Origin: Saururus chinensis
Lineage: Eukaryota; Streptophyta; Magnoliopsida; Piperales; Saururaceae
Direction of reading: 5' to 3'
NCBI GenBank assembly: GCA_035235625.1
Contig: CP141141.1
Location: 372,001-436,000 of the forward strand
Length of the DNA: 64,000 bases
Below are positions 4,991 to 41,195 of this stretch, piece by piece (within the stretch, counting starts at the first letter, position 1; the number at the start of each line of letters is the position of its first letter). Below the pieces are notes generated by a model. That model saw only the letters and a list, made by a program, of their open reading frames with translations, had not been told where the DNA came from and ran no database searches. Position numbers and translations under genes: made by a program.

Positions 4991-6290
4991 GGAAATGTTA
5001 TAGTATTATTGCTTCAATGTTGTAATTGCTACAGCGTTGTAGTGTTATTGGTGCTACAACATTTTAACATTATTGCTACAACTTTGCAGCGTTATTGCTC
5101 CAACGTTGTAGCATTATCGCTACAATGTTGCCGAAATAATGCTCAAACGTTGCAGCGTTATCGCTGCAACGCTGTAGTGTTGTAGCATTATCGCTGCAAT
5201 GTTGTAGCGATAATGCTACAACGTTGCAACATTGTCGCCATAATGTTGCAGCAATATCACTACAACGTTGCAGCGTTATTGCTGCAACGTTGCCGCATTA
5301 TTGCCGCAACGTTGAGCATTGTAGCATTATCGCTGCAACGTTGTAGCAGTATTGCTTCAACGTTGGAGCAGTATAGCTGCAACATTGTACCAATAACGCT
5401 GCAACGTTATAGCAATATCGCAGAAAAGTTGCAGCGTTATTGCCGCAATGTTGCAGCGTTATTACTACAATATTGCTGCGATAATGCTACAACGCTCAAC
5501 GTTGCAGCATTAACGCTGCAACATTGCGGCAATAACGCTGCAACTTTGCCGCGATATTGCTGTAACATTGCTGCGTTATTGGTACAATGTTGTAGCGATA
5601 CTGCTCCAACGTTGAAGCAATACTGCTACAACGTTGCAGCGACAATGCTACAAAGCTCAACATTGCAGTAATAATGTTGCAACATTGCGACAACGTTGTG
5701 GCAATAATGCTGTAACGTTGCTGCGATATTGCTGCAACGTTACGGCGATAATACTACAACATTTCTGCGTTATTGTTACAACGTTGCAGCGATAATGCTA
5801 CGCTATAGTGTTGCAATGATAACGCTACAATATTGCAGTGATAATACTACAACGATGCAGTAATAACGCTCTAACGTTGCAGCGTTATTGCTACAACATT
5901 GCAGCCATAATGCTACTACGCTGCAACGTTGTGGCATTATCGCTGCAACGTTGCACCAATAACACTGCAACATTGCAGTGATATTGCTGCAATGTTGTAG
6001 CGATAATGATACAACATTGCAGCAATAACACTGCAATGTTTGAGCGTTATTGCGGCAACGTTGTAGCATTATCGCTGCAATGTTTGAGCGTTATTACGGC
6101 AATGTTGTAGCGATAATGATACAACGTTGCAGGAATAACGCTGCAACGATACTGCTACAATGTTGTAGCACCAATAATGCTGCAACGTTGTAGCGATTAC
6201 AACATTGCAGCGATAACGCTACAACATTTGTAGTGATTAGAACGGTCATGGACACGGTCACGGTCACAGACATGGAAATGGTCAGACCGT
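4932..6290. mobile_element. Foldback-like unit with about 60-bp terminal inverted repeats enclosing array 1
   Basis: The left end, AACGGTCTGACCATTTTCAT followed by TGTGACC..CCATGACC, pairs with the right end ...GGTCATGG..GGTCACAG..AAATGGTCAGACCGTT. The pairing includes short internal GGTCA/TGACC motifs and runs on into ..AATCACT. The interior is almost wholly the 22-bp array. Sequence outside these ends is also inverted-repeated as part of the larger arms, so this may be an old foldback element inside the duplication or simply its inner edge. No target duplication can be assigned. Confidence 0.55.
4995..6237. repeat. 22-bp self-complementary repeat array 1
   Basis: About 1.24 kb of degenerate repeats with a period near 22 bp. 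The unit is approximately GCTGCAACGTTGCAGC followed by GATAAY or its complement RTTATC. The core TGCAACGTTGCA is a perfect palindrome, and the spacer AGCGNTANCGCT is also nearly symmetric, so both strands read alike. Copies vary mostly at CG to TG/CA positions (AACGTT, AATGTT, AACATT). Open frames on either strand give similar 22-residue-periodic peptides (LQRC, NAATLQRY), which I take as by-products. Two further arrays lie at 31200-32607 and 40385-41195. Confidence 0.93.
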
Positions 6291-7503
6291 TTTTATTTTT
6301 TTATTTTTTTTACTTAGCTTATAGTATTTATTTTGGATTATATGAAAAATAAATATTGTTTCCCACCCAACCCTCTCTTGCCGTCCTCACACTTCCCCCC
6401 ACATTTTTCCCACCCTTCCCTCTCCCTTATACGTGTCCATCTATGGCCGCCGTGCTCGAATTTAGTATAATTGGCCGTCATGCTCAAATCTCACTTGCCT
6501 CTGCAGCCCGCCGTATTGGAATTGCATCACGATCAAGGAGTCTTTCTATATCTAGTACAAATGCAAGTATGATTTTATAATAAATATTATCAAAATTTTG
6601 TTTAATTGTGTCTATAGACGTTACTGTTTATGCAAATTAGGTTTGATTCCTTAGAAAAAAATATACTAAAGTTCCATTTCATAGGTCGCTCTGGTTCTAC
6701 AAATCATGATGTCACCTATTTTCTCTTCTAATACTCATTGTTCTGCAGTAATTTTATTTTTAAGAAAATAAAATGTCTGAAAGAGCATACATAACTGAAT
6801 CTGAGTGAGGAATCAACTTTCCAATTCGAGTAATTATGTCAGTCACTCTACCCTTAAAACAACACCATTGGGAGATCATTCCAGCCAAACATAACTAGTA
6901 GACCTACAATATCCCTTCTCTGCCATGTTCTTAAACAAACAAGACACTCATAAGACATTTTTAAGCATTCCACACCTAATGGATGTGAACAAGACGAGCT
7001 CAGGAACTCCAAAAAGAGAGGATACACATTGTTCATTTTAGCACTGATTAGTCAAACTACAATATTAATTTTGCGATGGAGCAGATCACCAACAAAAAAT
7101 GGTCAAGCAAATGCTATTAGCCAAATAGAACATGTGATTTGGTTCAAAAGCATTTCTGGTGGACAACATTTTTATATATCAATACATCTTTTCACCAGCA
7201 CGCCTCCCAACCAGAGTTGTGTATTCTCTGGTAACAACCTTCTTCCTGCCCTTTCCCTTCTCAACTATTTTTGCTACTCCACACAAATGTGCTCTCAAAA
7301 CGACAGAACCTACATTGATAGAACAAAAACACTAATATTAATCTCTCTATACATATACATAATATATATATATATATAAGAAAATCACTGAAAGGAATAC
7401 AACAAGCACATCTTTGGACTACCATATACAAATATGATTAAAAAAACTAAATTATTACTGTAGATTACACAGAAATGGACCCGAGGCGTTGCTTCACCAA
7501 TTA

Positions 7504-7588
<85 letters not shown>

Positions 7589-8186
7589 AAAATCACTGAA
7601 AGGAATACAACAAGCACATCTTTGGACTACCATATACAAATATGATTAAAAAAACTAAATTATTACTGTAGATTGCACAGAAATGGACCCGAGGCGTTGC
7701 TTCACCAATTAATAGATAGAAGCACAGAATCGAGATAGCTCAAAATGGACAACAGATCAATATCAGAGGCATTGATCCCATTATGAAATAAATTATCCTC
7801 ACCTAAGAGTATTGATTTATCAGCACCTAAGAGACAAAAGTTGAGCGAGAAAAGTAAAAAAACCCTTACATGATAGTATAGTGTAGTCTGATCCCAAAGA
7901 AGAACAATTAAATTTCATCCCAGGATGGAGAAAAATGACAATAAAACACAGATAATGGTTGATGCTAATGAATATGCAAGCTTCCTACAATTTCTCAAAG
8001 CAACAACAAATGCATACCAAAAAGAGAGTTAATAGATTTAAATTTAGTACCTTTTTATCATTTTTTCCATAAGTATTTTGACCGTTCCCAAAATGCAAAG
8101 AGGCACCAACAAACCCCGAGTTCAATTGCCTAGAGAAAAAAAATACATATGTAATTGCTCTAGAATACTAAGGATTATAAAAACTT
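6230..8186 (-). repeat. Right arm of the 4.9-kb inverted duplication
   Basis: Reverse-complement copy of 3319-4990. It is longer because it keeps about 290 bp (6404-6695) absent from the left arm and has a local duplication around an (AT)n tract. Part of it (6485-6900) also matches 32605-33040 in direct orientation, next to array 2. That suggests the right arm is closer to the ancestral arrangement. Confidence 0.85.
7377..7714. repeat. Local direct duplication flanking an (AT)n tract
   Basis: A segment of about 125 bp beginning AAGAAAATCACTGAAAGG and ending CTTCACCAATTAATA occurs at 7377-7508 and again at 7586-7714. The (AT)n tract 7504-7587 lies between them. The left arm has only one copy. 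This looks like replication slippage or unequal exchange at the microsatellite. Confidence 0.9.
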
Positions 8187-8289
8187 TCAATATTTTGACT
8201 TTATGATATTTTGTACAATCTCAACCCCAACATCTGCAATTCCTAGATATAAATTTATATACTTACTTTATCATGTGAAAGAAGTTCAA

Positions 8290-8600
8290 AAGTGGGTCCA
8301 AAGAATCGTGCTCGAAGTCCTTCAATGACCTATTTAATGGCTAACAATACATTAATAACTAAGAACAGAAGACAAATGTCAAAATCTATTTTTGATGCAT
8401 TAAATGTTACACTCACGATATAGACAGAACATCACCTTACACGAAGGACCTTCAAATAGTATATTCAAGACTTTAGAAACCAACTTGGCAGTGTCAACTG
8501 TCCTTGAAAAGGTTGAATAACAAATCCGGACTTTATCAAGATCTATATTGCATTCCTTATGTTCCTAAAAGAAAGAGAATTTGAAATTAATTGTAAAAGT
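8290..8600 (-). pseudogene. Unidentified exon-like fragments
   Basis: On the minus strand a block ending in a GTAAGT donor near 8270 reads GLRARFFGPTFELLSHDK. A second block between CTTTTAG near 8568 and about 8430 reads ECNIDLDKVRICYSTFSR and continues to NILFEGPSCK. Both have splice-like borders and sensible protein composition, so they look like captured exons of one gene. I do not recognise the protein. No longer frame joins them to the UBP6-like pieces upstream. Confidence 0.4.
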
Positions 8601-9142
8601 CAAGATGTATCAAAAAGAGTAGTTACGCCGAAAAGAGTAGTTACGTCAAGATCAAAAAAGACAAGAACTAAGTTATAGAAAGCCCACATCAATGCATCAT
8701 CACACTTAACTCTCGTGGACAATCATGATATCTGACTCATAAGCATAGAGTATGATATTTTTCTTTGAAAAGAGGATACACAAGTTAGAAATTTTTTTTG
8801 TGAAGTCTATCATTTGAGGGATAGCATATCCTCTAGTGACAAGTGAGGTTCCATGTATGCTGGATATGAAGTTTACAAAAAGAATGTCAAGAAGAATCAT
8901 CTATATTGAAGCTGATCAACAGTGTAATCCTTGAAAGCTTACAATGTCTCTTATTAGGGAAATCAAAATGCTGTAGTTACACATTCCTCGTACACTATAC
9001 TTTCCTTACAGCTCAATTTATCCCAAGAAGAGGTTCTAAACAATCAAAAGTATGCATGAAAAATATAAACAATATGAAAGAAAGACGCAAAGAGAAGTAG
9101 TTATGAAACTACCCATGAAAAGAATTTCATATTTATCCTTAC
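8601..9142. other. No recognisable gene
   Basis: AT-rich, intron-like sequence. Short open frames here have no recognisable motifs. Confidence 0.5.
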
Positions 9143-9400
9143 AGAGTAGTAATGTTCCTCCATTGGCCAATGAATTCAGTAATTCTACCAGTAAATGAGT
9201 TGTTCGATGCCCACCTGGAAAAATTAACTGCCTTTGATGCAAGTTTTAATTATGGCAACATAAACACAACATGCCATAATGAGCATCTTGTACACAAAGT
9301 TGTAACTACTTACACAGCTAGTAAGATTCGCAGATTTGAGAATGTTGAAGGAATCTCACCACCAATGTCTGCACTATCTATATACCTGGCAACTATAAAC
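9143..9400 (-). pseudogene. Leucine-rich-repeat receptor kinase fragment (two exons)
   Basis: Exon 9143-9214 on the minus strand is exactly 72 nt between an AG acceptor and GTAAGG donor, the hallmark one-repeat exon of plant LRR receptor kinases. It reads ASNNSFTGRITEFIGQWRN. A preceding exon near 9310-9390 reads DSADIGGEIPSTFSNLRILL before a GTAAGT-like donor. The two match consecutive LRRs of the At1g53430/At1g07650 type (LRR-VIII, cell-surface kinases with a malectin-like domain). No kinase domain, signal peptide or transmembrane segment is present, so this is a captured or relic fragment. Confidence 0.7.
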
Positions 9401-9434
9401 TAGATCAAAAATCACTTCCCAAAAAACTGACAAG

Positions 9435-9640
9435 ATCTTAGTCAGATAAGATCTGATTAAGGTAAACAAACAGACCCTTAGTCACAGCAAACAAAGCAAA
9501 GAGATGCATACTTAGGAGCTAAAAAGAAGCAAAATCAGTTAGCTGGCACCAAGGTTCCATGTGAACAAAAATAAGAGAGACACAAAAGAATTGTATTCAT
9601 TACAGCAAGTGGGAAAAAAATAAGAGAGGAAAATACATTC
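9435..9640. repeat. Segment shared with 34035-34250
   Basis: Starting at GATAAGATCTGATTAAGG, about 200 bp match 34035-34250 in direct orientation with small differences (for example AGGAGCTAAAAAGAAG in both). It sits beside gene fragments in both MULEs, so it is another shared internal segment. Confidence 0.75.
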
Positions 9641-9659
9641 TAAACAACGCCTAAATGAT

Positions 9660-11056: not shown

Positions 11057-11144
<88 letters not shown>

Positions 11145-11257
11145 CTCACCACATCCACAGATTGCTCCTCCTCTGGAAGGCCTTCCATGAAGGCAGGGCC
11201 TTTCTCTGGTGCATTAACGATCTCATCAGCAGTTCCCATCAACATTAATTTTTGACC
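9660..11257 (-). pseudogene. UBP6: Ubiquitin carboxyl-terminal hydrolase 6/7-like gene fragment
   Basis: Relic of a proteasome-associated deubiquitinase (plant UBP6/7, USP14 family), read right to left. Exon 11150-11257 encodes the end of the ubiquitin-like domain (GQKLMLMGTADEIV, then APEKGPAF, EGLPEEEQ). Around 10470-10570 is the catalytic Cys box (FNLGNTCYMNSTLQCLHSV). Around 10255-10330 is DLFNELDRNVKPVA ending FWM before a GT donor. Around 9665-9770 is a piece matching SxETESVYS..KCHIS with the frame broken inside it. A one-base insertion also separates GHSAGL from FNLGNT just before the catalytic Cys. The His box and C-terminus are absent. Splice sites are partly kept, so this was captured as genomic DNA, not as a retrocopy. 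Confidence 0.82.
11059..11141. repeat. (AT)n microsatellite
   Basis: About 80 bp of TA dinucleotides inside the intron just downstream of the UBP6-like ubiquitin-domain exon. Confidence 0.97.
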
Positions 11258-11529: not shown

Positions 11530-12424
11530 AGATGAAGAGATATTTAGCATTACTATTTGGGAGCCGCTGCGGCTTCCTCAGTTCCAACAGTGACGGCCAA
11601 TTAGGAGGGAGGAGGTGTGAGAGGCTGGAAAAGGGGAGGCTTTTCCGGCGGCTAAGTGGTCCGGTCGATCAAGAGGGAGGCGCTCCGACTTCTTCGGTTC
11701 CAATGGTGACGGTTGATAGGGAGGGAGGAGGTGTGAGAGGCAAAAAAAAGAGGTTTTTTTTCCGCCGGCAATTTGGTCACTGTCGATCAAGAGGGAGGCG
11801 CTCCGACTCCTCGGTTCCATTGGCGACGGTCAATTAGGAGGGAGGAGGTATGAGAGGTGGGGAAAAAGTCCGGGCTTTTTCTCCCAATGTTCTCTCCCGT
11901 GTTCTTTTGACTAGTTTTCCGGCGGCGATTTGGTCAAGGTCGAAGTTGTGCGATAAGCCCGGTTCCGATGGCTCTTGTTCATGATCAATCAAGAGGGAGG
12001 GGCTGCGGTGGACAGTTTCGGTGGCAACGGTCGACTAGGAGGAAGCCCGGTTCCGGTAGCTCTTGTTCACGATCGATCAAGAGGGAGGCGTTGCAGTGGA
12101 TGGTTCCGGTGGCGAAGGTCGATGAGGAGGGAGGAGGTATGAGAGGCGGGAAAAAAGTCTAGGCTTTTTCTGAACTTGTTCTCTCCCGTCTTTTTAACAC
12201 TCGGTTTTCTCTGTAAGATTCAGGGAGAAGAACCCGGTTCCCTCTCTGTTAGAAGAACCGGGTTCCGGTTAATTTCACTGAAAAGGTCGTAACCCAAGTT
12301 CCGTCTCCGTTACTTCAGTGAGAAGGGAGAAACTTATATGAATTTCGGTTCTTGTGACGTGGAAGCTGCTCATTGGTGGCCAATGGGTGTTGAGCGAGAA
12401 GCCCTCCCCAGCAGATTCGCGTCC
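11530..12424. repeat. Right subterminal and terminal region of MULE-B
   Basis: GC-rich block with several imperfect copies of a unit containing TCAAGAGGGAGGCG and GGTTCC (about 11570-12130), then CCGGGTTCCGG motifs, ending GCAGATTCGCGTCC at 12424. The last about 480 bp are homologous to 42030-42421, the right end of MULE-A, and so to its terminal inverted repeat. Frames across it are side effects of the tandem repeat. Confidence 0.75.
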
Positions 12425-12429
12425 CCTTT

Positions 12430-12992: not shown

Positions 12993-13733
12993 TATTGCCC
13001 TATATATGTGACACCCAAAATTTCCCAAAAGAAAGTTCACTTTTTTATAATAAATAAAAAAATTTGGTTCAATTGTCAATGACCATCGACATGTCGATGG
13101 TTCTACTGATGAGAACAAACATGTTCTATCGGCGAGCATCGACACACTAAAAGAATTACCAATGATAATTGCATGCATGTTGTTATCACAATATATGAAA
13201 TGTTTAGGTAGTTTTAGACTTCGGGAGTAGTTATCTTAGTATTTAAGGGCGTAGAAACTGACTCATTGTGGGAAAAGGAGTCCACAAAAAGGCCACGCAC
13301 TAGTAGGGAAGTGTTCGGAGGCTGACAAGAGAAGGAAGATTTGTGCTTTGAGGTTGAATTGCTTTCTAAACTCAAAAATCTTAAATGAAATTCTCTTATT
13401 TGGAATTCCTTCAAATTCTTCGTGATTGTGAACTAGTGTATTTGTCATAAGCAAATGAATCCAAGTGATTGACGTCGTTTTAATGGAGTATTTGGGATTT
13501 TAATATTTTTAGTGAGAATTATGATTCAAGTACCTTAATCCTTCATTATGGAAAAGTTTTTTGTTGGATTTTATGACAAAAATATGTTTTGAAATCAATT
13601 CTTGAGTACTTGGTCTTAATTTTTCAATCGTCGGTATGATCACCAGCGTGTCGGTGGACACACCCCCAAGAGGAAGAGGATGAGCAGTACTCTACAAGTA
13701 TGCATTGAAATGTATGATATTTTAGTCATCAGT
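12993..13733. repeat. Diverged tandem-like region with TGTCGATG motifs, left of LARD-1
   Basis: No gene recognised. Motifs such as CATCGACATGTCGATGG and GTCGGTGGACAC recur here and continue at 20984-21290 on the other side of LARD-1, so LARD-1 inserted into a diverged repeat of this type. Confidence 0.4.
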
Positions 13734-15709
13734 TGTAATGACCCGACCCGAGCTGGGCCCACAAAATCACTAATAGAAAATTTATTCTCTTACTTAAGCC
13801 AGGAATCATCGTCTGTGTGCGAGAGATACAACGTTCGTCTACGCACTACGAGGCTTTAGGGCTTCCTCGTACATAGACTTAGGTTGTAACGAACACATAC
13901 ACACAACGAAGCTTCATAGTTCATTGCATGTAAAACAGAATAAAACATATTATTATAATTAATTTGGATTGGGCCAACGTTGCCTTGTCGTTGGTTGCCT
14001 ACATACGTATTGGATATTATTCCAATACGATCGGATCCGAACATAGTTCTGCCTTATGGCTACTACATACAACAAATATCACAAAATCATATGTATAAAA
14101 TACATATATACTGATTTTCAATCAGAGTTATGCAAAAACCGATAAAACACCGGCAATACACATCTCGCTCTATCACAGTTTGGGATCAATCACATTCACA
14201 TGTCTCGCTCCATCACTGAGCCGAGACTGAACACACACCATACGTCTCGCTCTACCAGAGAACAAGATGAAACATATCTACAGGTCTCGTCTACCACTGA
14301 GCCGAGACTGAAAACACACTACATGTCTCGCTCTATCACTGAGCCGAGACCGAACACACACATCACACGTCTCGCTCTACCTTAGAGCAAGACCACACAC
14401 ATCATGGCATAAAAGCACACCTCATGGCATATAAGCACACATCATGGCATAGCACACATCATTCTATAATTAAAACGGGAGATCTGAAATGCTTACTCCC
14501 CTCATGTCTTGCGAGGTAGTAGTATTCGGAGTTGCTCGTATGAGCATCCTCCCCTTCAGATTCGAAGATAGTAGACGAAGCTTCCTCTAGCCTCCATACG
14601 TTCCTCGTTTTGTATTTAAAGACAACGTATAAATGTTCTCCTTGCTGGAGACTCTTTTCGTTTTCTGCGCCCATGAGCGGTGGACACAACCTCCCTTACT
14701 CTGGATTAGTTCTCTTGATGTAGCCCGACAACTTTGGACAGAACTCCGTCTTGCTCCGGGCCCCTTTTTCTTGTTCGGCGCTCGAGGATAACGGGTAGAG
14801 CCTCTCTTTGTCTCAGGGCATTTCCTCTTTATACGGTTACCAACTTGGAAAACGGAGCCCTCCATTGTGTAGACACACTTGATTTAGTCAAGAACACCTC
14901 TTGAATCGACTAAATCAGAGTTAGGATGGACAGAAACAGAGAAATTGAAGTTGGTTGGTGCTCGAGGACAACGGGCAGAACCACTCCTTGTCTTAGGGTG
15001 TTTCATCCTTATATGGACTCCAACTCGAAGAAGGACCCCTCCATTGCGTAGAGCACACTCGATTTAGTAGGAAACAGGTCTTGAACAGCCTTAATTGGCC
15101 CCAGAACGGTAAAAAATGGGGCCGAAGAAGTTCCGATTCGAAAACAGAATGGAAATGGGGTATATATAGCCCCCGAGCCGCGAAAAGCACTACGTCGCGC
15201 CGCCAAATCCAGTGGCGCCGTGGTTTTAGGGCTGCGGCGCTGCCGTACACGTGGCTCATTCCTACGTGCGCAAATTCACATGCCTGCTGCGTCGTGGATC
15301 CACGGCAGCCTCGATTTCGCTAGCGCGTCTCGCGCCGTGGCGGCCTATTTATTTTTTTATTTTTCTTTTTCTTCTTTCTTCAAACACGATAACTTCTTAC
15401 CCCGGATTCGGATTCGCGTGTTCTTAATACCGCTGGACTCGTATTGACGAGCCCTTCGATACAAACCCACTTAAAGTAGAAAATCACAATATTTCCAAGT
15501 GGGTCTTGCCTATTTTCCATGTTTCCCGAGGTCGTAACTTCTTGTATTGACCTCCATTTTGCGCGTTCTTAGAATCGTTACGCTCGTTTCTTCAAGCTCT
15601 ACTCATATATGGAGGTTTCACCCTCTAAAACCCTCTAAAATTTATCCCAAAATTATCTAATTAGGCCTAACCCTTCAAGTTAGATGTAATCGAAAAATGA
15701 GTCGTTACA
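13734..15709 (-). repeat. LARD-1 LTR (3' LTR in element orientation)
   Basis: Contains a tandem block at about 14160-14400 built on GTCTCGCTCTA..CTGAGCCGAGACTGA, then short CATGGCATATAAGCACAC repeats, and a GC-rich segment near 15180-15350 followed by TATTTATTTTTTTATTTTTC. Ends at GAGTCGTTACA. Confidence 0.88.
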
Positions 15710-15725
15710 TTCTCCCCCCCTTAAT
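15710..15725 (-). other. LARD-1 polypurine tract
   Basis: On the minus strand AAGGGGGGGAGAA directly precedes the LTR start TGTAACGACTC. This is the expected plus-strand priming site and sets the element's orientation. Confidence 0.85.
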
Positions 15726-18935: not shown

Positions 18936-18938
18936 AAT

Positions 18939-18952
18939 GCTCTGATACCATT
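18939..18952 (-). other. LARD-1 primer binding site (tRNA-iMet type)
   Basis: The plus strand reads GCTCTGATACCA just before the LTR. Its complement TGGTATCAGAGC is the standard plant site pairing with the 3' end of initiator-Met tRNA. Confidence 0.9.
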
Positions 18953-20983
18953 TGTAAAGACCCGACCCAAGCCAGGCCCACAAAATCACTAATAGAAAAT
19001 ATATTCTCTTACTTAAGCCAGGAATCATCGTCTGTGTGCGAGAGATACAACGTTCATCTACGCACTACGGGGCTTTAGGGCTTCCTCGTACATAGACTTA
19101 GGTTGTAACGAACACATACACACAACGAAGCTTCATAGTTCATTGCATGTAAAATAGAATAAAACATATTATTATAATTAATTTGGATTGGGCCAATGTT
19201 GCCTTGCCGTTGGTTACCTACATATGTATTGGATATTATTCCAATACGATCGGATCCGAACATAGTTCTGCCTTATGGCTACTACATACAACAAATATCA
19301 CAAAATCATATGTATAAAATACATATATACTGATTTTCAATCAGAGTTATGCAAAAACCGATAAAACACCGGCAATACACATCTCGCTCTATCACAGTTT
19401 GGGATCAATCACATTCACATGTCTCTCTCCATCACTGAGCCGAGACTGAACACACACCATACGTCTCGCTCTACCAGAGAACAAGATGAAACATATCTAC
19501 AGGTCTCGTCTACCACTGAGCCGAGACTGAAAACACACTACATGTCTCGCTCTATCACTGAGCCGAGACCGAACACACACATCACACGTCTCGCTCTACC
19601 CTAGAGCAAGACCACACACATCAAGGCATATAAGCACACTTCGTGGCATATAAGCACACATCATGCCATAAAAAGCACACCTCATGGCATATAAGTACAC
19701 ATCATGGCATATAAGCACACATCATTCTATAATTAAAACGGGAGATCTGAAATGCTTACTCCCCTCATGTCTTGCGAGGTAGTAGTATTCGGAGTTGCTC
19801 GTACGTGCATCCTCCCCTTCAGATTCGAAGATAGTAGATGAAGCTTCCTCTAGCCTCCATACGTTTCTCGTTTTGTATTTAAAGACTACGTATAAATGTT
19901 CTCCTTGCTGGAGACTCTTCTCGTTTTCTGCGCCCGTGAGCGGTGGACACAACCTCCCTTACTCTGGATTAGTTCTCTTGATGTAGCCCGGCAACTTCGG
20001 ACAGAACTCCATCTTATTCCGAGACCCTTTTTCTTGTTCGGTGCTCGAGGATAACGGGTAGAGCCTCTCTTTGTCTCGGGGCATTTCCTCTTTATACGGT
20101 TACCAACTTGGAAAACGGAGCCCTCCATCGCGTAGAACACACCTGATTTAGTCAAAAACGCCTCTTGAATCGACTAAATCGGAGTTAAGATGGTCAGAAA
20201 TAGAGAAATTGAAGTTGGTCGGTGCTCGAGGACAACAGGCAGAACCACTCCTTGTCTTAGGGCGTTTCATCCTTATACGGACTCCAACTTGAAGAAAGGA
20301 CCCCTCTATCGCATAGAGCACGCTCGATTTAGTAGGAAATAGGTCTTGAACGGCCTTAATCGGCCTCAGAATGATCAGAAATGGGGCAAAAGAAGTTTCG
20401 ATTAGAAAATAGAATGGAAATGGGGTATATATAGCCCCCGAGCTGCCGAAACCACGACGCCGCGCCACCAAATCCTGTGGTGCCGTAGTTTTCAGGCGGT
20501 GGCACATGTCGTAAAGTATGGCTCGCGCCCGTGTGCGCAAATTTGCGGCGCCTGCAATTTCGCGGGCTCGTCTCGCCTTGCCAAGCGCTCCAGTCGCGAG
20601 CCGCGAGCCGCGCCGGCCTATTTATTTTTTTATTTTTATTTTTCTTCTTTTTCAAACACGCGTAACTTCTTACCCAGGATTCGGATTAGGGTGTTCTTAG
20701 TACCCGTTGGACTCATATTGATGAGCCCTTCGATACAAACCCACTTAAAGTAGAAAATCACACTATTTCCAAGTGGGTCTTGCCTATTTTCTACATTTCC
20801 CCAAGTCGTAACTTCCTGTACCAACCTCCATTTTGCGCGTTCTTAGAATCGTTACGCTCGTTTCTTCAAGCTTTACTCATATACGGAGGTTTCACCCTCT
20901 GAAACCCTCTAAAATTTATCCCAAAATTATCTAATTAGGTCTAACCCTTCAAGTGAGACATAATCGAAAAATGAGTCATTACA
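18953..20983 (-). repeat. LARD-1 LTR (5' LTR in element orientation)
   Basis: Direct copy of 13734-15709 with scattered substitutions and a longer GGCATATAAGCACAC block near 19620-19720. Starts TGTAAAGACCCGACCC and ends GAGTCATTACA. Confidence 0.88.
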
Positions 20984-21322
20984 TTAGCAGCGGTGTCGAC
21001 GCTTTGGTGAAGCATCAATGAAGAAGGTAGACTGATAGCCAACCCACTGTCAGTAGAGTTTGACTTGTCAGTGAACTCATCAATGATAATTGATGAGGTA
21101 GTCGACCTGTTGGCAAGGTTGTCGATGACACCTTTAGTTAACTATCGGTGGTGTTTGATATGTCGATGAATTTCCTTATGGTCATAGGTGAGGTGGCCGA
21201 CATGTCGATCATGTCATCAATTGTCATTGGCAGGGTAGCTGACATGTCGGCAAGGTTACTGACAATGATACTAGTTATGGTTTTCCAAGAAATAATATAG
21301 GAATAATTAATGTTAAAATTAA

Positions 21323-23375: not shown

Positions 23376-23640
23376 GCGGACGCGAATCTGCTGGGGAGGC
23401 TTTTTCGCTCAGCACCCATTGGCCACCAATGAGTGCCTTCCACGTCACAAGGACCAGCATCAGAACAGAGACGCTCGAATTAACGGACGGAATTTGGGTC
23501 ACGGTTCTCGCTCAAATTAATAGACATGGAACCGGGATTTGGGTCAGGTTCAAATTAATAGACACGAAACCGGAAACTCGGTTTTCTAACAAAGACGGAA
23601 CCAGGTTCTGAAATTCTGAAACAAACAGAGAAGACCCGCC
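23376..23640 (+). repeat. MULE-A left terminal inverted repeat
   Basis: Begins GCGGACGCGAATCTGCTGGG and runs through CCACGTCACAAGGACCAGCA to GACCCGCCTCTCGTAC. The inverted partner ends at 42423, and a third, more diverged copy ends at 12424. Confidence 0.88.
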
Positions 23641-23654
23641 TCTCGTACGACGGG

Positions 23655-25175: not shown

Positions 25176-26545
25176 TTGAGCCCAGGGGTCGCCTGCATTT
25201 CGTGCTCTATTTCTATCCGATCTCTCATTTGGTTCATTGCATTTGTGTCTAGTTGAGCAGTAATGTGCTTTCATTTGGACGTTGTTTTCTTTTGTTCATT
25301 TGGGACTTGCTCCGTGCTGCCATATTCATTTGTTTTTAATTTTTCTGATCTGGGTCTGTCCAACTTTTTGGTTATTTTTGTCTTATGAATAATAGTCACT
25401 TCGTTCTTGTATGGATTTCTTTCTTTTTTAGTTTGCCACGCTCAATTTCTCGAAAAAAACCTCTTAATGTCTTTTAAAAAATTATATTTCGATGCTCAAT
25501 TGTTGGTCTATGTTGTGAGATATTTTGTCATTTATATCTCTTTCTTAGGACGTGAGACTTTGAAATCCCTCATATGGTCAGATTGTTCATATTTTGATCC
25601 CCATTCACGTCACTTTGAAAGAAATTTGCTTAATGCTACAATCTACATACAGGCATCTCATTTGTGCATTTGTTTGTGAATTTGGCTTACATTCATGATT
25701 ATTGTTTAGCTTGGTCTTAACTCCTTTTGGTGTTGTTTACCCCTGTGTTTCGTCTTTCTCTATGACTTTTACTTAAGCTTGACTGCTCTTGTATTTTTAT
25801 GAAACCTAGAGGAGTTCCGCTTATTTTTTATCACGCAGAGGAAATTGGCTTATATTGATTTCATGTGTACTATTGATATGTTATATGTCTCTAGTTTTAT
25901 GTTATGTGATTGGCTTATTCTAAAATTGAAATGCTCTTCGCAACATTATAACTTTATGAATGCACTTTATGACGTTGCAGGAGTCGTCATTGAACATTTA
26001 GTGTCTTCTCCACAAGTGGCTTCCATATATCAAATCCCTATATCATGAAGAATAAATCAAGTATGTTTTCTTTAATCCCTATGGTTAAATAATGTTAGCA
26101 ATATTGTTGAACTTGTAAGAGTATTGCTGATGTATTATGATTATTGCTAATGATTTAGCATTGTTGTTGATGCTTTAGCATTATCGTAGATGATAATCCT
26201 ATTATCAATAAATTAAGTATGTGCCACATTTTCCAAGCATTATTGCTAAAACCATGTTAGCATTATTAGTAAATTGTTATCGTATAATTGCTAAGACTTT
26301 ATAACATGATTTGTATAATGATTTGGCTTTATTGTTATAACGTTTCAACAAGCTTCTTGATGTATGTTTCACCAACTATTTTAATTTTCTTTATCATTTT
26401 AAAAGATTCATAAGTAAAAATGATTATTGAATTGAGATCTCTATTCATAAGATATTGAATTATATGGCTATGTTATTCATGGGGTATACTGAACACTTTT
26501 GTTAAACATTTATATACCTTTGTACTCATCCATGGATATTTATGC
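25176..26545. other. Leader or intron-like sequence upstream of the Ulp1-type gene
   Basis: No coding motif. 26050-26350 is low-complexity, repeating ATTGCTAATG-, TTAGCATTATTG- and TTGTTATAACG-like words. The stretch may include untranslated exons and a first intron, since 26540-26545 ends in TTTATGCAG. Confidence 0.4.
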
Positions 26546-29500
26546 AGAAGTTTTTGAAATGAAGAAGAGGAGCCCAAACCTTGCAGTAGGGTCAAAAAAA
26601 ATTAGGCGTGAGTCACTAAAAGTCCCTTGCACCCCCATGGGACTAGCAAAGTCAATCAACATTATCAAAACCATCCCGCAGGTGAAGAACTTGGTTGGCC
26701 AGACCCCTTTCATCAGATTGCTTGATGCCATAACCATTATTTGTCAGGCATCACTATTTGAAGTTATTTTGGTTTATTGGTCTGAGGCTCAACCTGGGGT
26801 CACATTCGGGGGACACAGAGTGGACTTTACTGTAGAGGATGTGGCCCTCATCACTGGCCTAAAAATGGGGGGCGATCGGGTGGTATTCGGCCAGAAACGA
26901 GAGAGGGGTGATTTTTGTAAGCGCTATTTTGGGAAGAAGGTTACAAGGTCGGAAATTGAAAGGAAACTGGACTTGTTACAGGGCAAGACCGATTCTAAAT
27001 CAATGGAGGATTGTGCAAGATTGATCGTCTTGCACATTTTTGTATGCCTTCTATTTCCTCAGACCAACCATGTGGTCAAGAATGAGTTAGTTGACCTGGT
27101 GGAAGACATGGGCAACCTCCATCGATATGACTGGCCGCAAGCCATTTATGACTTTTTAGTAAGCTCAGCCTTAGCCCTCCATAGGAAGCTTGTGTTGAAG
27201 GAGGAAGGCAAGTTTGAGGGATACGGATCATTGATTGGAGCCGCATTTATCCTACAGGTATTTTATACTTTGTACATAATTATATTTTCATTTTTATGTG
27301 GGAGCTACAAGATACTAATGTTTATCTATTATATGTCATAGGTGTGGGTGTTTGAGCATTTTCGGATGTTCATATCCCCTATGCCGGAGAAGCTACCCCG
27401 ATTTTGCAAATGGCCAAATTGTGGCCTTGTAAAGGGTGAAAAAGAGGGAACACACCACAGGTCGGTGGGTAGATATGCGCAATTATTCAAATATGTGAGA
27501 CCACAAGAGGTAATTGCAACACGATAATATATATAATGAATTATTTGAGAGTTTTTTAAGAGTTGTTCAACTCTTAATTTTATTGAAAGTTGGATGTTAA
27601 ATCATTGTGCATATGTTGACTGCAGGTTTTATCTGTGTTGGTTCCTGCTGCAAATGAGACATATCTATTTCAAGGGGCAAGAAAAACTTCAAAGAAAAGG
27701 AAGGTAGGAGTCGAGGCTCTGGAGCAGGGGAAGGATAGTGGGGGAGGGCTATTGGTCTTGAAGTCCTCCATAGAGAATATGTCCTCTGCACTTGGAGTTG
27801 TGCAGAGTGCCATGTATATATTGCATGAGGAGGGTTACCATACAGGCCAGCTACATGGTGTAATTGACGCCATTTCAGAAAACTTTTCAAAATTTAAAAG
27901 CATGGCCAATCATTTGGTGAAGAGGCCAAGAGCTGGGAACAAGGAGGAAGGTGGTGAAGCAACTGATGAAGATGACGGAGAGGAGAGTGATGATGTGGGA
28001 GGTGAGGGTGTGGAGGGGGAAGAGGCAGAGGAAGAGGAAGGAGATGAGGAAGAGGGGGAGAGGAAGTAGAGGACAAAGAGGAGGGGGGAAGGGAGGGGGA
28101 GAAGATGGAGGAGATGATGGGGGAGAGGAGGGGGGTGAGGAGGAAGGAGAGGATGGAAGAGTGGTTGGGGGCGAGGAGGGGGGAGAGAAGGAAGGAGAGG
28201 ATGGGGCAGAGGAGGGGGGAGAGGAGCAAGAGGTGGGTAAGAGAGAGGAGGGGCCAAATGGGGATGAGAGAAAGAAGGATGAGGAGGGAGATGGATATAA
28301 GAACAAAGGTGTTGATAATGTGGAATGTCCATCGAAGAGGCCTGTACGGATGAAATATAAAACCAAGAAGTATGGGACTCCATTTACACAAGAGACGAAG
28401 AGAACAAAGAGGGAGAATAAGGCATTGACTGAAGATGTGGAGGCTGCAACAAGTGTAGTTTCTTCCCACGCCTCAACCAAGCAAACAGTCCCTACCATCC
28501 TTCGCCAGCCATTGAAGATAAATTTATGCAGTCCCCTCTCTAATTTGACTAAGTGGGACCAAGAAACTATTGAAAAATTCATTAAAGACGGGAGCCACTC
28601 CGTGGCGGGGGTTGTTGTCGCTGACAATGACTTGATAGATATGTTGAAGGCGGAGTACATATCGTCTAATGTAAGACTACAATTTCTCCCTTTTAAATCT
28701 TAACTAGTCAATATTGCTTATATATTAAATGTATGTTTCGATGCATGTAGGTTATAGATGCATATATGCATATGCTAGAGCAGAGGGCCTCTAGACCAAC
28801 TGGAAATGTCTTTCCCAAATGCCACTTTGGGAGCTTTGTCTTGCAATATTATTTCACCCAGGTATGGTCAACAGTATAATGTGTATTTATTGGATTAAGT
28901 TCGGATATGGACTAAGTCAAATCCACACCAATTGCAACAGAAGGATGTAGCAAAAGACATAATGGATGACCTGGCGACCACTTGTTTTGGAGCTGATAAA
29001 GATTGCCCTGACTTCATCTTCTTACCACTATGTGACAATGCACATTTCCACTTATTGGTGGTAGATGTGATCGAGGGTGAAATGAAATGGTTTGATTCAA
29101 TGCCAGGGTATGGCCATAAGAAAAGGCTACCGAATGTGAGGAAATTGGTGAGTAATTGTATGATTAAGTGAAAATGTCTTCTTTTAGTGATGACTTTTAA
29201 ACTAATTCAGCTAATATGTCTAGGTGACAAACATAAGAGTATTACTTGAGGAGCATCTTAAGGATTCCAATACTAAGAAGTGGAAGATCAATAGTCTGAA
29301 GGGACCATATCAAGGCAACGGGGTTGATTGTGGGTTCTTCCTCATGCGTCTGATCTATTGCATTAGTTCTGGACTGCCGGTTGATTTTACTCAGGTATAT
29401 GGCCCAATTGTAGATATCTGTTTGAGTTTCTTCTTTGTACCTTCATTTAAAGTGAGGGGATGCAATATTAATTGTTTCAAATATTTTAGGAAGATATCTC

Positions 29501-30984: not shown

Positions 30985-31200
30985 TTCAGAAAAACCAAGA
31001 GACCTTTGAACTGGAACTTCATTTTCTTTTCCAAGGAATCAAACCCTAATTTGCATATATGGTGACGTCTATAGACACAATAAAACAATCTTTTGATAAT
31101 ATTTACTATAAAATCACACTTGCACTTTTACTAGATACAGAAGGACTCCTTGATCGTGAGGCAATTCGAATACAGCGGGCTGCAGAGGCAAGTGAAATTT
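30985..31200 (+). repeat. Left arm of the inverted repeat around array 2
   Basis: About 200 bp that pair with 32605-32825 in reverse complement (AACTTCATTTTCTTTTCCAA, GACGTCTATAGACACAA, GGGCTGCAGAGGCAAGTGAA). Contains an exon-like frame reading EGLLDREAIRIQRAAEAS, which I could not assign. Confidence 0.85.
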
Positions 31201-32607
31201 GTCGCAACAACGTTGTAGCAATATCGCTGCAACATTGCAGCATTATCGCTGTAATGTTGAAGCATTATCGCTGCAACATTGCAGCAATAATGCTACAATG
31301 TTGCATCAATATCGCTACAACGTTTCAGCGTTATCGAGGAACGCTACAACGGTGCAGCAATAACACTACAACGTTACAGTGATATTGCTGCAACATTGCT
31401 GCATTTTTCGATAACGCTGCAACGTTGCAGTGATATTACTGCAACGTTGCTGCGTTCTTTGATAACGCTGCAACGTTGTAGCGTTCTTCGATAACGCTGC
31501 AACGTTGTAGCGTTCTTCGATAATGCTGCAATGTTGTAGCGATAACGCTGCAACGTTGCAGCTTTATCGAAGAACGCTACAACGTTGCAGCATTATCAAA
31601 GAACGCAGCAACGTTGCAGTAATATCACTGCAACGCTGCAACGTTGCAACGTTCTTCGATAACGTTGCAACGTTGTAGCGATAACGCTGCAATGTTGCAG
31701 CGATGTTGCAGCGATACTGCTACAACGTTGTAACATTATTACTACAATGTTGCAATCAGCAATAATGCTGCAACGTTATAGCGTTATTGCTACAACGTTG
31801 CAGCGTTCCTCGATAACGCTGCAATGCTGCAGCGATAACGCTGCAACGATGTAGCGATATCGCTGCAACGTAGTAGCGATAACGCTGCAACGTTGTAGCG
31901 ATAATGCTGCAACATTGTAGCGTTATTGCTGCAATGTTGCAGCGTTCCTTGATAACACATTGCAACGTTGCAGCAATAACGCTGCAATGTTATAGCGATA
32001 TCGCTGCAACGTAGTAGCGATAACGCTGCAACGTTGTAGCGATAATGCTGCAACGTTGTAGCGTTATTGCTGCAACGTTGCAGCGTTCCTTGATAACGCT
32101 GCAACGTTGTAGCGATAACGCTGCAACGTTGTAGCGATACTGCTGCAACGTTGCAGCATTATTACTACAATGTTGCAATCAGCAATAATGCTGCAACGTT
32201 GTAGCGTTATTGCTACAACGTTGCAGCGTTCCTCGATAACGCTACAATGCTACAGCGATAACGCTGCAACGCTGTAGCGATTTCGCTGCAACGTAGTAGC
32301 GACAACGCTACAACGTTGTAGCGATAATGCTGCAACATTGTAACGTTATTGCTGCATCGTTGCAGCGTTCCTTTATAACGTTGCAATGTTGCAGCGATAA
32401 CGCTGCAATGTTGTAGCGATATCGCTACAACGTAGTAGCAATAACCCTGCAACGTTATAGCGATAATGCTGCAACGTTGTAGCGTTATTACTGCAACGTT
32501 GCAGCGTTCCTTGATAACGCTGCAACGTTGTAGCGATAACGCTGCAACGTAGTAGCGATATTACTGCAACGTTTTAGTGATAATGTTTAAACGTTGCACA
32601 AATAACA
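31200..32607. repeat. 22-bp self-complementary repeat array 2
   Basis: Same unit as array 1 (GCTGCAACGTTG[C/T]AGCGATAA and complements), about 1.4 kb, period near 22 bp, more homogeneous than array 1. It shows higher-order structure: blocks containing GCGTTCCTYGATAACGC recur at roughly 130-150 and 430 bp spacing (for example 31800, 31945, 32085, 32225, 32365, 32505), so longer units were amplified later. Confidence 0.93.
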
Positions 32608-33040
32608 CTGCAAAAATTTCACTTGCCTCTGCAGCCCGCGATATTCGAATTGCCTCACGTTCAAGGAGTCCTTCTGTATCTAGTACAAGTGCATGTGTGA
32701 TTTTATAGTAAATATTATCAAAAGATTGTTTTCTTGTGTCTATAGACGTCACCATATATGCAAATTAGGGTTTGATTCCTTGGAAAAGAAAATGAAGTTC
32801 CAATTCAAAGGTCGCTGGGTTCTCAGATCATTATGTCACCTATTTTCTCTTCTAATACTCGTTGATTTGCAATAATTTTATTTTTTCTATATATAAATTG
32901 TTTGAAAGAGCAGACACTTTGAATCTAAGTGAGGACTTCATTCTCCAACTCGATTAATTATGTCTGTCATTCTAACCTTGAAACAACACCATTTGGGAGA
33001 TCAGTCCTGCCAACCACAACTATCAGATCACAGTTAAGAA
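32605..33040 (-). repeat. Right arm of array 2 and segment shared with 6485-6900
   Basis: The inner about 220 bp pair with 30985-31200. The whole block matches 6485-6900 in direct orientation (CACTTGCCTCTGCAGCCCGC; ATGTCACCTATTTTCTCTTC; AACAACACCATT.GGGAGATC). It contains the minus-strand exon-like frame EGLLEREAIRISRAAEAS. The source gene is unidentified. Confidence 0.82.
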
Positions 33041-36500: not shown

Positions 36501-37311
36501 ATCATTTCTCTTAATTATAAGAACTTTCCAAGCCATGTCCTGAAATGGTTTTATTTAAATCCCCCATCACGTCATTACTTCACATATTCCAAATCAACCC
36601 TCTGTGAGACCATGGGAGTTCCAAATATATACACAGATTGCAAGTTAGATACTATAATACGACACACTGAATCAATTGATGGAATATCACCATAAGCATC
36701 CACTGAACCTCATTTACTAGAAAAGAAAAGAAGATAAACAAAAAGGGCCTAAGGTAACAGCTATGGAGTTTCAGAGCAGGTGAAGGCAAGGTGCAGGATA
36801 TAACACTAAAAAGAATAAAAAGTTAATGAGCAAATTAGTCTTCTGTGGTCACTGTTGGGAGAGTAAGTGAAGTGCTGCTTGATATAGGAAAATAATAGAA
36901 TATATTATCAAGTGTTAACTGCTGTGAAGTACCAAACAATAATACAAAAATGGAAAGTACGAGCAATATCTGATTATTAATCTGTATCCTTTTTGCACAA
37001 AAAACTACCAAGTTTCTACTTGCATATGTGCAGTGTTTACAAAAAAATTGATGAGTTGCTAAATACATGACTATCACAAAAAAATCCCTTATCCTCCCCA
37101 AAAAATTCTTCACAAGTATTGTATGTTCAAGCATTCTGCACAATAAGTAGTTGAAACTTCAATGTACGCATAATGAGGATAGCAGTCTTGACAACTCCAT
37201 CCCCTAACAAAAACAAGCTTCCACCTGCATGAACAAAACTATAGTATGCTCAATCTAAGGATTAAGTTTTGATAAACCTATAATATGCAACTTTCAAATA
37301 CAATATCCAAC
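33524..37311. other. Intron-like, AT-rich region with a few exon-like scraps
   Basis: 34035-34250 repeats 9435-9640. On the minus strand a short block bordered by AG and GT at about 36149-36192 reads EQLLLEQFEKSQLK, and one at about 35565-35650 reads VKKLDGMYDAVLFLCKGVS before a stop. They may be captured exons of one gene; I cannot name it. 34590-34900 has a repeat-like GTTTGAACTTAGGACCTCC. No complete gene is seen. Confidence 0.4.
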
Positions 37312-39953
37312 CTAGTTAGGTTGTTGAGAGCTACTTCGGGCTAAGTAGTGATGCGAACTTCCAATGGTATCTATGTTGCTAGTGATCAAATCCCCTTGCA
37401 TAGGTATAGAAACATCTTGCATCTGTAAACATATTCAGCTGCTAAGATTTGAAGTTATACATATGTATATTAATGATGATAACTAAAAGGAAAAGATTAG
37501 GAGTTTTACAAATAATAAATTCATCATGTTGCAACTATGTTGGTCAGTGATCTTTGCGGGCAATTGGCTATGCAAAGAAGTCTCCGGTTGGGAATTTATT
37601 TGACTAAGTTGAGTTTGCATGTAATCACTTGGAAGTCCATCGGTTAATTCCTACACCATAGAAAAGAGTATTTCAAACATATACATTTAGCTAAGGTTAG
37701 TGTACAAGTCAATTACTAAAAACAAAAACATAATACCTCGATACAACAATTGTCCATATTTAATCTGGTGGCCTTCTTTTTGGGTAGTGTTTTATTCTTC
37801 TTAGTCCTCTCAAGACAACTTTTGATCCTAGGACCACCTCGCTTTCCTCCTTGTTTTACTTTGAAGCCCTTAACTAGGGGGGAAGTTGCACTATCATTAA
37901 CATCATCAACTTATGCTTTGCCACTTCCACTACAAGTTATGTCAACTCCAAAAGAATCATGCTGGCTATCACAAACCCTACCATGTGAGATGACATCGGG
38001 TTGTTGTGAAATTACACGATTATTACACTCTCGCACTTCCTTCAAAATTGTATCCACATAGTTTAGGGCAATTAAAGTTGCATCCTCAGTTAGTGTTGCT
38101 TCGTTTGTCAAATTTCTAAAAGCCAGACATAAATCATTATTCCTCCTCATGAGAGCAACATTCGGATCTGCTTCAATTATAGAACCACGGCGATTAATAA
38201 CACTACCAGATTTTGCTTCTTTGGTCCATCTTTTCAGAACATAATGTGGAGGCAACTCAAGTATCTTGAAGTGATCAAGTACCCTAAATGCATGACGGCA
38301 TAAGATACCCACAAAATTAAACATCTTACAACTACAATCAACTACATTGGTTGATGGGTCATAATTGACAATGTGTTTGCGTTGTGTTTGATCCATTTCA
38401 ATTGTACACTCCTTCATCACACCATGCTCAACAACCTCTATGACAACATAGTTTAGGCAACCTAAATATTCCTTTTCGATCATCTTGAATATTACTGGTG
38501 TGTAAACACTTGAAGCATACTTCATGATCCGAGAATGAACAGTCACAATTGGCATGCTATGCTTCATCTTAAATTCAGCATTCCCTTCTTTACGACGTCT
38601 ATCAGCCAATAGCCTCTCATAATGATCAAAAAACCTGCATAAATTATGCTCAGATTTCAAGTATCCTCTTAGAATACCGTTCATGCTTTCACTCCTTTGT
38701 GTGGATTTCATATCACCTGTGAACATATGTCGCCCATAAACCATTGCCCATTTCTTTCTTTCTTTGAATAGCCCTTCTAGCCATTCATTTCCATGAAGTT
38801 CATACTTCTCAAGCATATTATCCCATGCTGTGTAAAATTCTTCTTCATCCTCGTAATCATAAATGCATTTGCTGAAGTCATGGGCAAATGGCTTCTTGCC
38901 ATCAATAACTAAATTAAATGAGTGGTTAAGATGCTTACAGGCATTCCTATACATATGCCACACACAAATACGATGATGGGTATTCGGTAAAACCGAAGCT
39001 ATTGCACTAGCCATTGCCTTATCCTGATCAGTTAAAATTGTCTTCGGATGACTACCCATTGTATCTGTGAATGTCTTGAACAACCACTCAAAACTTTGGA
39101 TGGTTTCATCATATAACAAAACTGCTCCAAAAATAATGGTCATCTTATTATGATTTAAACCCACAAACAGACCAAATGGACGACAATATTTGTTGGTCCT
39201 ATATGTGGTATCAAAGCAAACAACATCTCCAAAATGATGATAATCCATAATCGAAACCGGATCTGCCCAAAAGAAGTTTGTTATTTTATGATCCTCATCA
39301 TATTGCATGCTATACTCAAATGAGGAATTTTGAGTACGCCTCCCTTTCAAATACTTGATTATGGCAAAAGCATCTCCTTGGTCAATTGTTTTTTGGCGCT
39401 TCGTACATAAGTAATTATTGTAGTCCTCCTGAATAAAGCCAAGGTTCTCAAACCCCCCTACTTGCTTAGCCATAAATTCAACTGCTTCTCTTGGGCGTAT
39501 CCCTGAACCATCTGCTATGTCTGCAGCAACAACTTGAATAATACTCATTCTCCTTTGCGACCTTAGCCTATTAACATAGACTTGGTTTGTGACCTCATGA
39601 TTATGTTTTTCTTCAAAAGTCCGAATACGCCATGCACCATCTTGTTGCAAATTGATGACCAGTTGGGCTTCACATCCAACTCTTGTTTCTGGTCGAGGAT
39701 TCTTTGGATTTTCCCGTCTCTTATCAAATAGTCTATGACCTTCTTTGGAGCAACAAAATCTTCTATAACACCTTTGACCTTTCACATTTGTACGGGAGCT
39801 GGCTCGACGAATGCTAAATCCAACATTTCGGGCATACTTATTGTAAAACTCATATGCTTCTTCCTCGGAAGAAAATCTCATACCAACTTCTGGCTCCCAT
39901 ATCTCCCTTCTTTTTTCTTCTTGTAGGATCACTTGATCTACCGAGGTCCACAT
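37312..39953 (-). CDS. FAR1-family MULE transposase (FAR1-related, FRS5-like), with an in-frame stop
   Basis: Nuclear DNA-binding transposase-type protein. Exons on the minus strand: 39953-37737, 37650-37510 and 37422-37312, with phase-0 GT..AG joins, ending TAG. The first 680 codons are open. FAR1 DNA-binding domain about 25-120 (C62, C67/C68, C94, H117, H119). MULE transposase core about 230-430 with acidic residues D248 (VCFDTTY), D309 (ILTDQDKAM) and E422 (TQRSESMN). SWIM zinc finger C540-x-C542..C552-x-H554. A TAA at 37911-37913 replaces codon 681; the frame then stays open for another 57 codons of basic tail (VKGFKVKQGGKRGGPRIKS) and two small exons. This is probably a nonsense mutation, with a truncated but domain-complete product. 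It lies convergent to the Ulp1-type gene inside the same inverted repeats. It could instead be a host FRS gene caught in the element. Confidence 0.85.
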
Positions 39954-40384
39954 CTAATTCTTCCATTTGAAGCCTGCACAATTAAATAAGAATGAATCAC
40001 ATACCATTTCATAAGTATTACTTCTCACAAGGAATAAGGGAAGCCAAAAACCAATCATGAAACAAAATCTTTTAACCAAATACTCATAAGTCTTCACTCC
40101 ATTTTATATGCTATAAGGGCCAATACATGTTTTAAACTCATGGGCACTAACGATTCAGCTCAATATCATACTACACAAAATGGATCGCACTCAAGTGATA
40201 AGAAATTCAGCATGTTATCTCATGTTGAAACCCTAAATTCTTCTTTTTCTCCCCAATGCATTGTAACCACCTACTTTTTTTAATCACATTGCAACGGGTA
40301 AAAGATAAATCAAAATGTGCAACTGAAAACAATTTACCTTGCCCAATCACTCAGTGGCCGGCAGAACCCAAGTGTAACACTGTA
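39954..40384. other. Upstream region of the transposase gene
   Basis: AT-rich; on the minus strand TGTGCAG lies about 25 bases before the first ATG, so an upstream exon is possible. No further coding motif is visible. Confidence 0.35.
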
Positions 40385-41195
40385 TCACCAGCAATAACGT
40401 TGCAATGTTGTAGCATTATCACTGCAATGCTGCAGCATTATTGTTGTAACGTTATCGAAGAACGCAACAACGTTGTAGCAATAACGTTGCAGCATTATTG
40501 CTACAATGTTACTGCGTTCCTCGATAACGTTGCAGCGATAACGCTTCAACGTTATAGCGATATTGCTACAACGTTGAAGCGTTATTGCTGCAATGTTGCA
40601 GCGATAATGCTACAACGTTGCTGTGTTCCTTGACAATGTTGCTGCGTTCCTCGACAACGTTGCAACAATAACGTTGCAAAGTTGCAGTGATAATGCTACA
40701 ACGTTGCAATGTTATTGCTGCAACGTTGCAGCGTTATTGCTGCAACGTTGCATCGTTAATGCTACAATGCTACAACGTTGCAACGTAATTGCTGCAACGT
40801 TGCAGCGTTATTGCTGCAACGTTGCATCGTTAATGCTGCAATGCTACAACGTTGCAACGTTATTGCTGCAACGTTGCAGCGTTATTGCTGCAACGTTGCA
40901 TCGTTAATGCGGCAACGTTGCAACAATAATGCTACAATGTTGCAGCGTTGCCCGATAAAGTTGCAGCATTGCAGCAATAACGCTGCAGTGATAATGCTGC
41001 AATGTTACAACATTAATGCTACAACGTTGCAGCGTTATTGCTGCATCGTTGCAGCGTTCCTTGGTAACGTTGCTGCAATAACGCTGCAACGTTGCAGCGT
41101 TATTGCTGCAACGATGCGGCGTTAATGCTGCACCGTTGCAGCAATAATGCTACAACGTTGCAGTGTTGCCCGATAATGTTGTAACGTTTCACCAA
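40385..41195. repeat. 22-bp self-complementary repeat array 3
   Basis: About 0.8 kb of the same 22-bp unit. A longer unit of about 65 bp containing GCAACGTTGCATCGTTAATG is repeated three times (about 40735-40920). Unlike arrays 1 and 2 it has no inverted flanking arms that I can see. It sits between the transposase gene and the right end of MULE-A. Confidence 0.92.

Follow-up and report, generated by a model that had tools for sequence, protein, structure and literature searches.

Three arrays of a self-complementary 22-bp repeat, all within a 64,000-nucleotide stretch of the Saururus chinensis genome (C2:372001-436000, hereafter the window), are borne by members of a Mutator-like transposon family whose copies elsewhere in the genome carry the same repeat. 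We consider it probable, at roughly three chances in five, that the repeat is a transposon-borne minisatellite, inherited as cargo, whose self-pairing sometimes turns its carrier into a foldback element. The arrays would then be the non-coding cargo of one Mutator-like family, with a unit that pairs with its own complement, and would be copied along with the element at each transposition. Array length would shift mainly through direct duplication or deletion of blocks of units, inverted duplications would sometimes be gained through the capacity of each stretch to pair with nearly all others, and exchange or foldback within an array would leave the carrier palindromic, with the array at or near the apex. 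No host or transposition function of the array would be needed.

The repeat unit and its carriers in the window

A first-pass annotation of the window had noted three arrays of a 22-bp repeat, and these proved to be real (A1, A2 and A3; Table 1): lag 22 is the autocorrelation peak in each (0.634, 0.605 and 0.617; shuffled sequences average about 0.25 and reach maxima of 0.30-0.32). Wraparound alignment gave the consensus CAACGTTGCAGCG(W)TA(W)YGCTG, with a per-array identity of 81-83%. The 22-bp phase is interrupted by steps of 7-8 or 14 bp, and higher-order repeats are superimposed on it in A2 and A3. The unit is made up of a 16-bp palindrome, GCTGCAACGTTGCAGC, and a non-palindromic 6-bp core present in both orientations. 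With up to 3 mismatches allowed, the palindrome occurs at 133 sites in the window, 132 within the arrays and one elsewhere, where dinucleotide shuffles give a mean of 0.65. The self-complementarity of the unit was equalled by just 58 of 200,000 shuffles of it; an AT-rich short repeat at 50094 is almost as self-complementary (0.889 versus 0.909 for the array unit).

The unit had been described as palindromic at two centres. The 16-bp palindrome supplies the first of these, whereas strict palindromy of the second is ruled out, since the ATAA/TTAT core pairs with its own mirror in 23 of 147 cases where shuffling expects 60.8. This core appears as ATAA or TTAT and more rarely as ATAT or TTAA, and because it pairs with its mirror less often than the shuffled expectation, the units possess an orientation (n = 131: 66 F, 32 R, 22 palindromic and 11 other). 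No array shows clustering of F and R units, with 16, 17 and 11 runs against 18.2, 13.9 and 11.5 expected. Selection for pairing through compensatory change was rejected, as no mirror pair was paired significantly above the shuffled level (lowest p 0.12). An exact 34-mer pattern had 0 matches in IMG/VR contigs and 0 in GTDB contigs, which says little because neither is a plant collection, and in the literature the motif strings matched solely papers with titles on other subjects.

The annotation had also placed all three arrays in two related MULEs, which proved correct. Element 2, with outer ends at 23376 and 42423, has a TIR pair of 90% identity (23379-23648 versus 42189-42422) and encodes a transposase with FAR1 and MULE domains; in its DUF1985 frame a plant mobile domain match falls below its cut-off. 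Element 1 is a large inverted structure with arms of about 1.7 kb flanking A1, in which segment 6405-6692 of the right arm has no counterpart in the left, and no TIR match was seen at its left end (~2320). The features expected of a MULE, namely a MULE-domain transposase, TIRs and a TSD of 9-11 bp, were all found, with element 1 showing the right TIR only. Flank B and the sequence left of element 1 are marginally similar (23 versus a shuffle maximum of 22).

Several other features of the window were recorded. A TOPLESS-like exon at 2052-2166 (zf_topless match, frame 23-643) runs to ...SADGTR and gives way to unrelated sequence directly left of element 1, and the expected TOPLESS continuation past SADGTR was not found in the window. 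Microsatellites of (TA)n lie at mirrored places in the element 1 arms (3897-3992 and 7504-7586). Direct repeats of about 2 kb at 13730-15711 and 18949-20985 are 90% identical and 5.2 kb apart, a comparable direct pair at 55765-57197 and 61259-62732 is 84% identical, and the stretch 53220-55513 holds several long AG-rich microsatellite tracts.

Table 1. Arrays, inverted arms, TIRs and open frames of the window, in positions of the window
Feature	Position	Strand	Basis or detail
Array A1, 22-bp self-complementary repeat, ~56 units	4995..6237		autocorrelation, consensus alignment, unit orientation
Array A2, ~62 units, 139-bp higher-order repeat	31200..32607		autocorrelation, consensus alignment
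Array A3, ~36 units, 74-bp higher-order repeat	40385..41195		consensus alignment; ~430 bp upstream of transposase frame
Element 1 left inverted arm	3320..4985	+	matching pieces 3320-3979, 3967-4367, 4541-4822, 4825-4985
Element 1 right inverted arm	6247..8184	-	90-96% identity to left arm, gaps excluded
Inverted duplication within A1	5296..5676 (arms 5296-5461 and 5511-5676)		92.8% over 166 bp, 49-nt loop
Inverted duplication within A2	31413..31645 (arms 31413-31514 and 31544-31645)		95.1% over 102 bp
Left inverted arm (segment A) adjoining A2	30993..31200	-	95.7% over 208 bp versus 32614-32821
Segments A+X, recurrent flank of A2-type array	32614..33030	+	genome matches; 83.6% to 6486-6897
Element 2 left TIR (GGACGCGAATCTGCTGGGGAGG...)	23376..23650	+	TIR alignment
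Element 2 right TIR	42189..42423	-	TIR alignment
Element 1 right TIR and subterminal sequence	12043..12424	-	TIR alignment
FAR1 and MULE transposase open frame, 680 aa, element 2	37911..39953	-	PF10551 6.3e-28, PF03101 9.6e-25, SWIM 2.3e-5
DUF1985 open frame within element 2	26493..27341	+	PF09331 8.4e-10

Family copies with and without arrays

The genome searched comprises 516,460,831 bases in 11 contigs. With 40 of 254 candidates scored, the A3 end and its flank have at least 34 near-full-length copies besides that of the window (86-98%, on all 11 contigs), and with 40 of 97 candidates scored, segments A+X have at least 40 matches, the window's own included. Ten of the 34 A3-flank copies were read with 14.5 kb each, a choice that fixes the presence of the A3 end and leaves that of the A2-type array free, and all ten contain both an A2-type and an A3-type array. 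The transposase is present in seven of them at 95.9-99.7% DNA identity, open over 754 codons in three, and the remaining three, 5.0-5.3 kb long, have TIRs and both arrays without a transposase match. TIR pairs are also present in other family copies, and one member (L001) is a 1.6-kb mini-copy with an array. At a copy on C1 (C1:39641812-39643320) the flank of about 490 bp to the right of A3 is repeated three further times in tandem. Among seven array-bearing copies checked for TSDs, 9-bp duplications were found at C4_43, C3_50, C10_3.93 and C7_39.39 and none at element 2, C6_17.36 and C1_50.61; the arrays thus move with the element. Eight further TIR loci are on neither of the array-flank lists, of which three carry an array (C2_20.9, C7_31.2 and C11_11.50), three are array-less, and two (C8_21.69 and C10_23.38), whose stretches are too short to reach the array position, count neither way. 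Recurrence of the arrays inside elements with the same ends, which the first-pass annotation had proposed as a check, is seen elsewhere in the genome, and no wide occurrence of the repeat outside such elements was seen in the part of the genome examined.

An independent satellite that invaded MULEs from elsewhere is disfavoured and seems to us very improbable. It would account for a second subfamily, found through the repeat itself by way of a list of palindromic 12-mer places, that comprises three loci on C1 (C1_19.28, C1_33.5 and C1_20.09) with 86-92% mutual identity over hundreds of bases; these match elements 1 and 2 only in some 50-75 bp of the TIR end, in two of the three loci, and carry the same 22-bp repeat despite an unrelated interior. 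The array at C1_19.28 moreover has no family TIR within the 6.5 kb examined, although its likeness to the two loci that bear the TIR end links it to the family. Array size also argues against a satellite: in a sample of 41 arrays the blocks reach at most 2.1 kb and all adjoin family sequence, save that at C1_19.28, which is tied to the family through its relatives. Of the selfish satellite DNA suggested in the annotation, a large satellite finds no support so far. At one locus (L033) two neighbouring blocks span 2.4 kb, beginning 18 bp inside the stretch read, so that the left side is cut within the array. The palindromic 12-mer has 573 places in the genome against 165 for its reversed control (the places listed are the first ones, all on C1, and the loci read for arrays are a sample), counts that fit the 7-18 per copy examined in a few dozen copies.

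A more tenable alternative, though in our view still an unlikely one, is that the array is an accessory cis-acting sequence whose units serve as binding sites for the family transposase or a host factor and thereby aid transposition or transposase expression. The A2-type array is present in all ten long copies, including the three that lack a transposase match, and A3 lies some 430 bp upstream of the transposase frame; arrays also occur in the mini-copy and in the subfamily that shares only the TIR end, and their presence in long copies of two subfamilies would fit a cis-acting role. These samples are biased, because the A3 flank was the query that yielded the ten copies, and the repeat itself led to both the mini-copy and subfamily II. 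Against such a role, none of the three TIR stretches in the window contains the 16-bp motif (the closest matches have 6-7 mismatches of 16), no array was found in 2.6 kb at L036 despite its flanks X, A and B, and short array-less elements of 0.9-1.15 kb occur at C2_32.19, C1_54.74 and C5_25.50. The two of these copies with checkable flanks, each of about 1.1 kb, have perfect 9-bp TSDs (the flanks of the third could not be checked), so that the array, at least in short copies, is not required in cis for transposition. An essential cis array should be present in every transposed copy, and these two lack it; the earlier idea of a transposase-binding array, taken as one needed for transposition, is supported by neither the TIRs nor the array-less copies. 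Since short members without an array also transposed, the repeat is apparently passive cargo. Head-to-head TIR matches at C9:29114162-29114629, 468 bp overall, are perhaps a still shorter array-less member.

Array growth, inverted arms and sequence decay

The changes that arrays undergo can be followed in element 2, C4_43, C6_17 and C3_50, whose transposase DNA is more than 99% identical to that of element 2 and whose arrays differ in length. In the ten pairwise comparisons made, of 12 possible, these arrays align collinearly as direct blocks of about 95-99% identity interrupted by indels, and an inverted block appears in none of the ten. Only direct indels are thus seen among recent copies, and inversions are therefore old or rare. 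Both kinds of duplication are found in the sample of 41 arrays, in which a strong direct duplication (score of at least 50) occurs in 32 and a strong inverted one in 14, many of them inherited and so not independent events.

The arrays of the window differ in their symmetry. In 88-bp windows of A1, the inverted match within A1 is better than the direct one in 88 of 106, and against A2 and A3 it is better in 53 and 49 of 106, respectively. Within A2 and A3 direct similarity prevails, with the inverted match ahead in 26 of 121 windows of A2 and 7 of 66 of A3. Best segment scores between the three arrays are 32-46. The mirror symmetry about the centre of the element 1 arms extends into A1, where it holds in 25 of 108 windows (each expected by chance at about 2%; the windows overlap and include both sides), and a second, inner symmetry centre of A1 is seen in 32 of 85. 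Array A1 is itself part of the element 1 palindrome. The symmetry of the A2 arms continues into A2 in 1 of 123 windows, and A2 grew mainly by direct blocks despite its inverted duplication. The duplications in A3 are direct only, and no inverted flanks were found around this array (local score 24 versus a shuffle maximum of 25).

Inverted arms recur beyond the window. Segments A+X lie inverted on both sides of the array at eight loci (C4_43, C6_17, C3_50 and L025-L029), and a ninth pair is among the matches listed (C2:30128416/30132362). Shorter or partial arms are found in element 2, C7_40.20 and L034, and A+X is one-sided at C4_19.72, C3_3.64, C4_25.78 and L035, where 1.0-2.2 kb of the opposite flank was read. 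At C2_20.9 inverted arms of about 2.8 kb, reaching from the TIR to segment A, enclose the array together with other DNA, so an arm can equally be an ordinary long TIR. Family members differ in foldback shape, some of which may go back to a small number of events, and the A+X arms, recurrent at many loci, may have arisen once. At C1_19.28 the right flank is copied inverted to the left of the array (91% over 334 bp), an arrangement not seen in C1_33.5 and C1_20.09, and comparison of the three loci reads as a before-and-after case.

We infer that self-pairing drives inversions and helped to make the foldback derivatives, for which foldback synthesis at a break, template switching during replication and recombination between inverted units are candidate routes. 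Counted against this are the direct-only changes of recent copies, the dominance of direct similarity in A2 and A3, the lack of arm symmetry in A2 and the unclustered F and R units. The lack of clustering is more readily explained by amplification of mixed blocks than by a small number of large inversions. Transversions at the other A and T positions of the unit amount to about 5.5%, which makes a double A-T swap in a quarter of the units unlikely to have come about by point mutation; the two unit orientations would instead stem from old inversions followed by amplification of mixed blocks. A stronger proposal, which we hold to be rather unlikely, is that the array is a strand-switching module, kept by the MULE family because pairing and exchange within it repeatedly turn linear elements into foldback ones and swap interiors between TIR ends. 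If true, this would explain subfamilies that have only TIR ends and array in common.

It is also conceivable, if improbable, that the arrays act as a hairpin or siRNA source, transcripts of the palindromes forming dsRNA that would silence the family, as proposed for Mu killer. The arms of element 1 would provide a long palindrome around an array, and single strands of 489 nt fold far better than shuffles (z of -26, -22 and -14, the first for 5242-5730, which contains the inner duplication of A1). Sequence decay points in the same direction: with the three arrays pooled, transitions relative to the consensus reach 25% at CG and 32% at CAG against 7% at CTG, 7% at CAA and 2% at A/T sites, a pattern that fits methylated plant TE DNA. 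A similar CG/CHG bias in the non-array arms of element 1, however, means that this is not specific to the array, and methylation alone does not explain why CAG decays more than CTG overall, an imbalance that A1 and A2 show strongly and A3 only weakly (21% versus 16%). At unit positions 9 and 22, chiefly in A1 and A2, pooled CAG decay is about 4.5 times CTG decay, though both are CHG.

Comparison with known systems

To our knowledge, the origin of the long inverted arms of foldback transposons is unsettled. One family in one genome here offers copies with and without arms around the same self-complementary array, recent copies that show array change, and transposed array-less copies; with these side by side, it is directly testable whether self-pairing repeats help to make transposons palindromic.

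Repeats within transposon ends are described in several papers. Tm1 of Meloidogyne, a Mutator/Foldback element, has 9-bp TSDs and repeats of about 14 bp inside its TIRs (PMC3169594, which also cites the mariner-like Mcmar1 with 355-bp TIRs containing direct repeats and palindromes), Galileo (PMC3573991) and Tetris (PMC4079207) carry repeats of about 210-220 bp inside their TIRs, and FARE of Arabidopsis is of foldback type with tandem repeats in its TIRs (as cited in PMC4486113). The tandem repeats of the Galileo TIRs have been proposed to help transposition or transposase expression (PMC3573991). Tm1, Galileo, Tetris and FARE are, like the present family, DNA transposons with inverted arms and short tandem repeats that change in size, and Tm1 further shares Mutator type and 9-bp TSDs. 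The family described here differs from Tm1, Galileo and Tetris in that its repeats are internal, the unit is self-complementary and present in both orientations, and the TIR ends lack the unit. Foldback elements are recognised by long TIRs with tandem repeats inside, whereas the TIRs of the window are without the unit and the arrays are internal. Searches of open-licence papers turned up these relatives but no MULE-borne self-complementary minisatellite, and no internal array of this kind shared by two MULE subfamilies.

The inverted duplication of a MULE has a parallel in Mu killer, a duplication of TIRA and mudrA that silences MuDR in crosses (PMC3440606); element 1 differs in duplicating non-transposase sequence and in having no known activity. 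For the formation of such structures, work in yeast describes nearby short inverted repeats that seed inverted duplications by foldback priming (PMC10622511). There the breaks were induced, mostly in repair-deficient strains, whereas here end products are what is seen.

As internal cargo of plant TEs, the arrays resemble the central tandem repeats reviewed for Tnat2 of Arabidopsis (repeats of 60 or 240 bp) and the 3' UTR repeats of the Tat lineage (PMC10794571), for which no self-complementary unit is mentioned in the text consulted. For annotators, the present case is one in which a puzzling repeat is TE cargo and not a new satellite.
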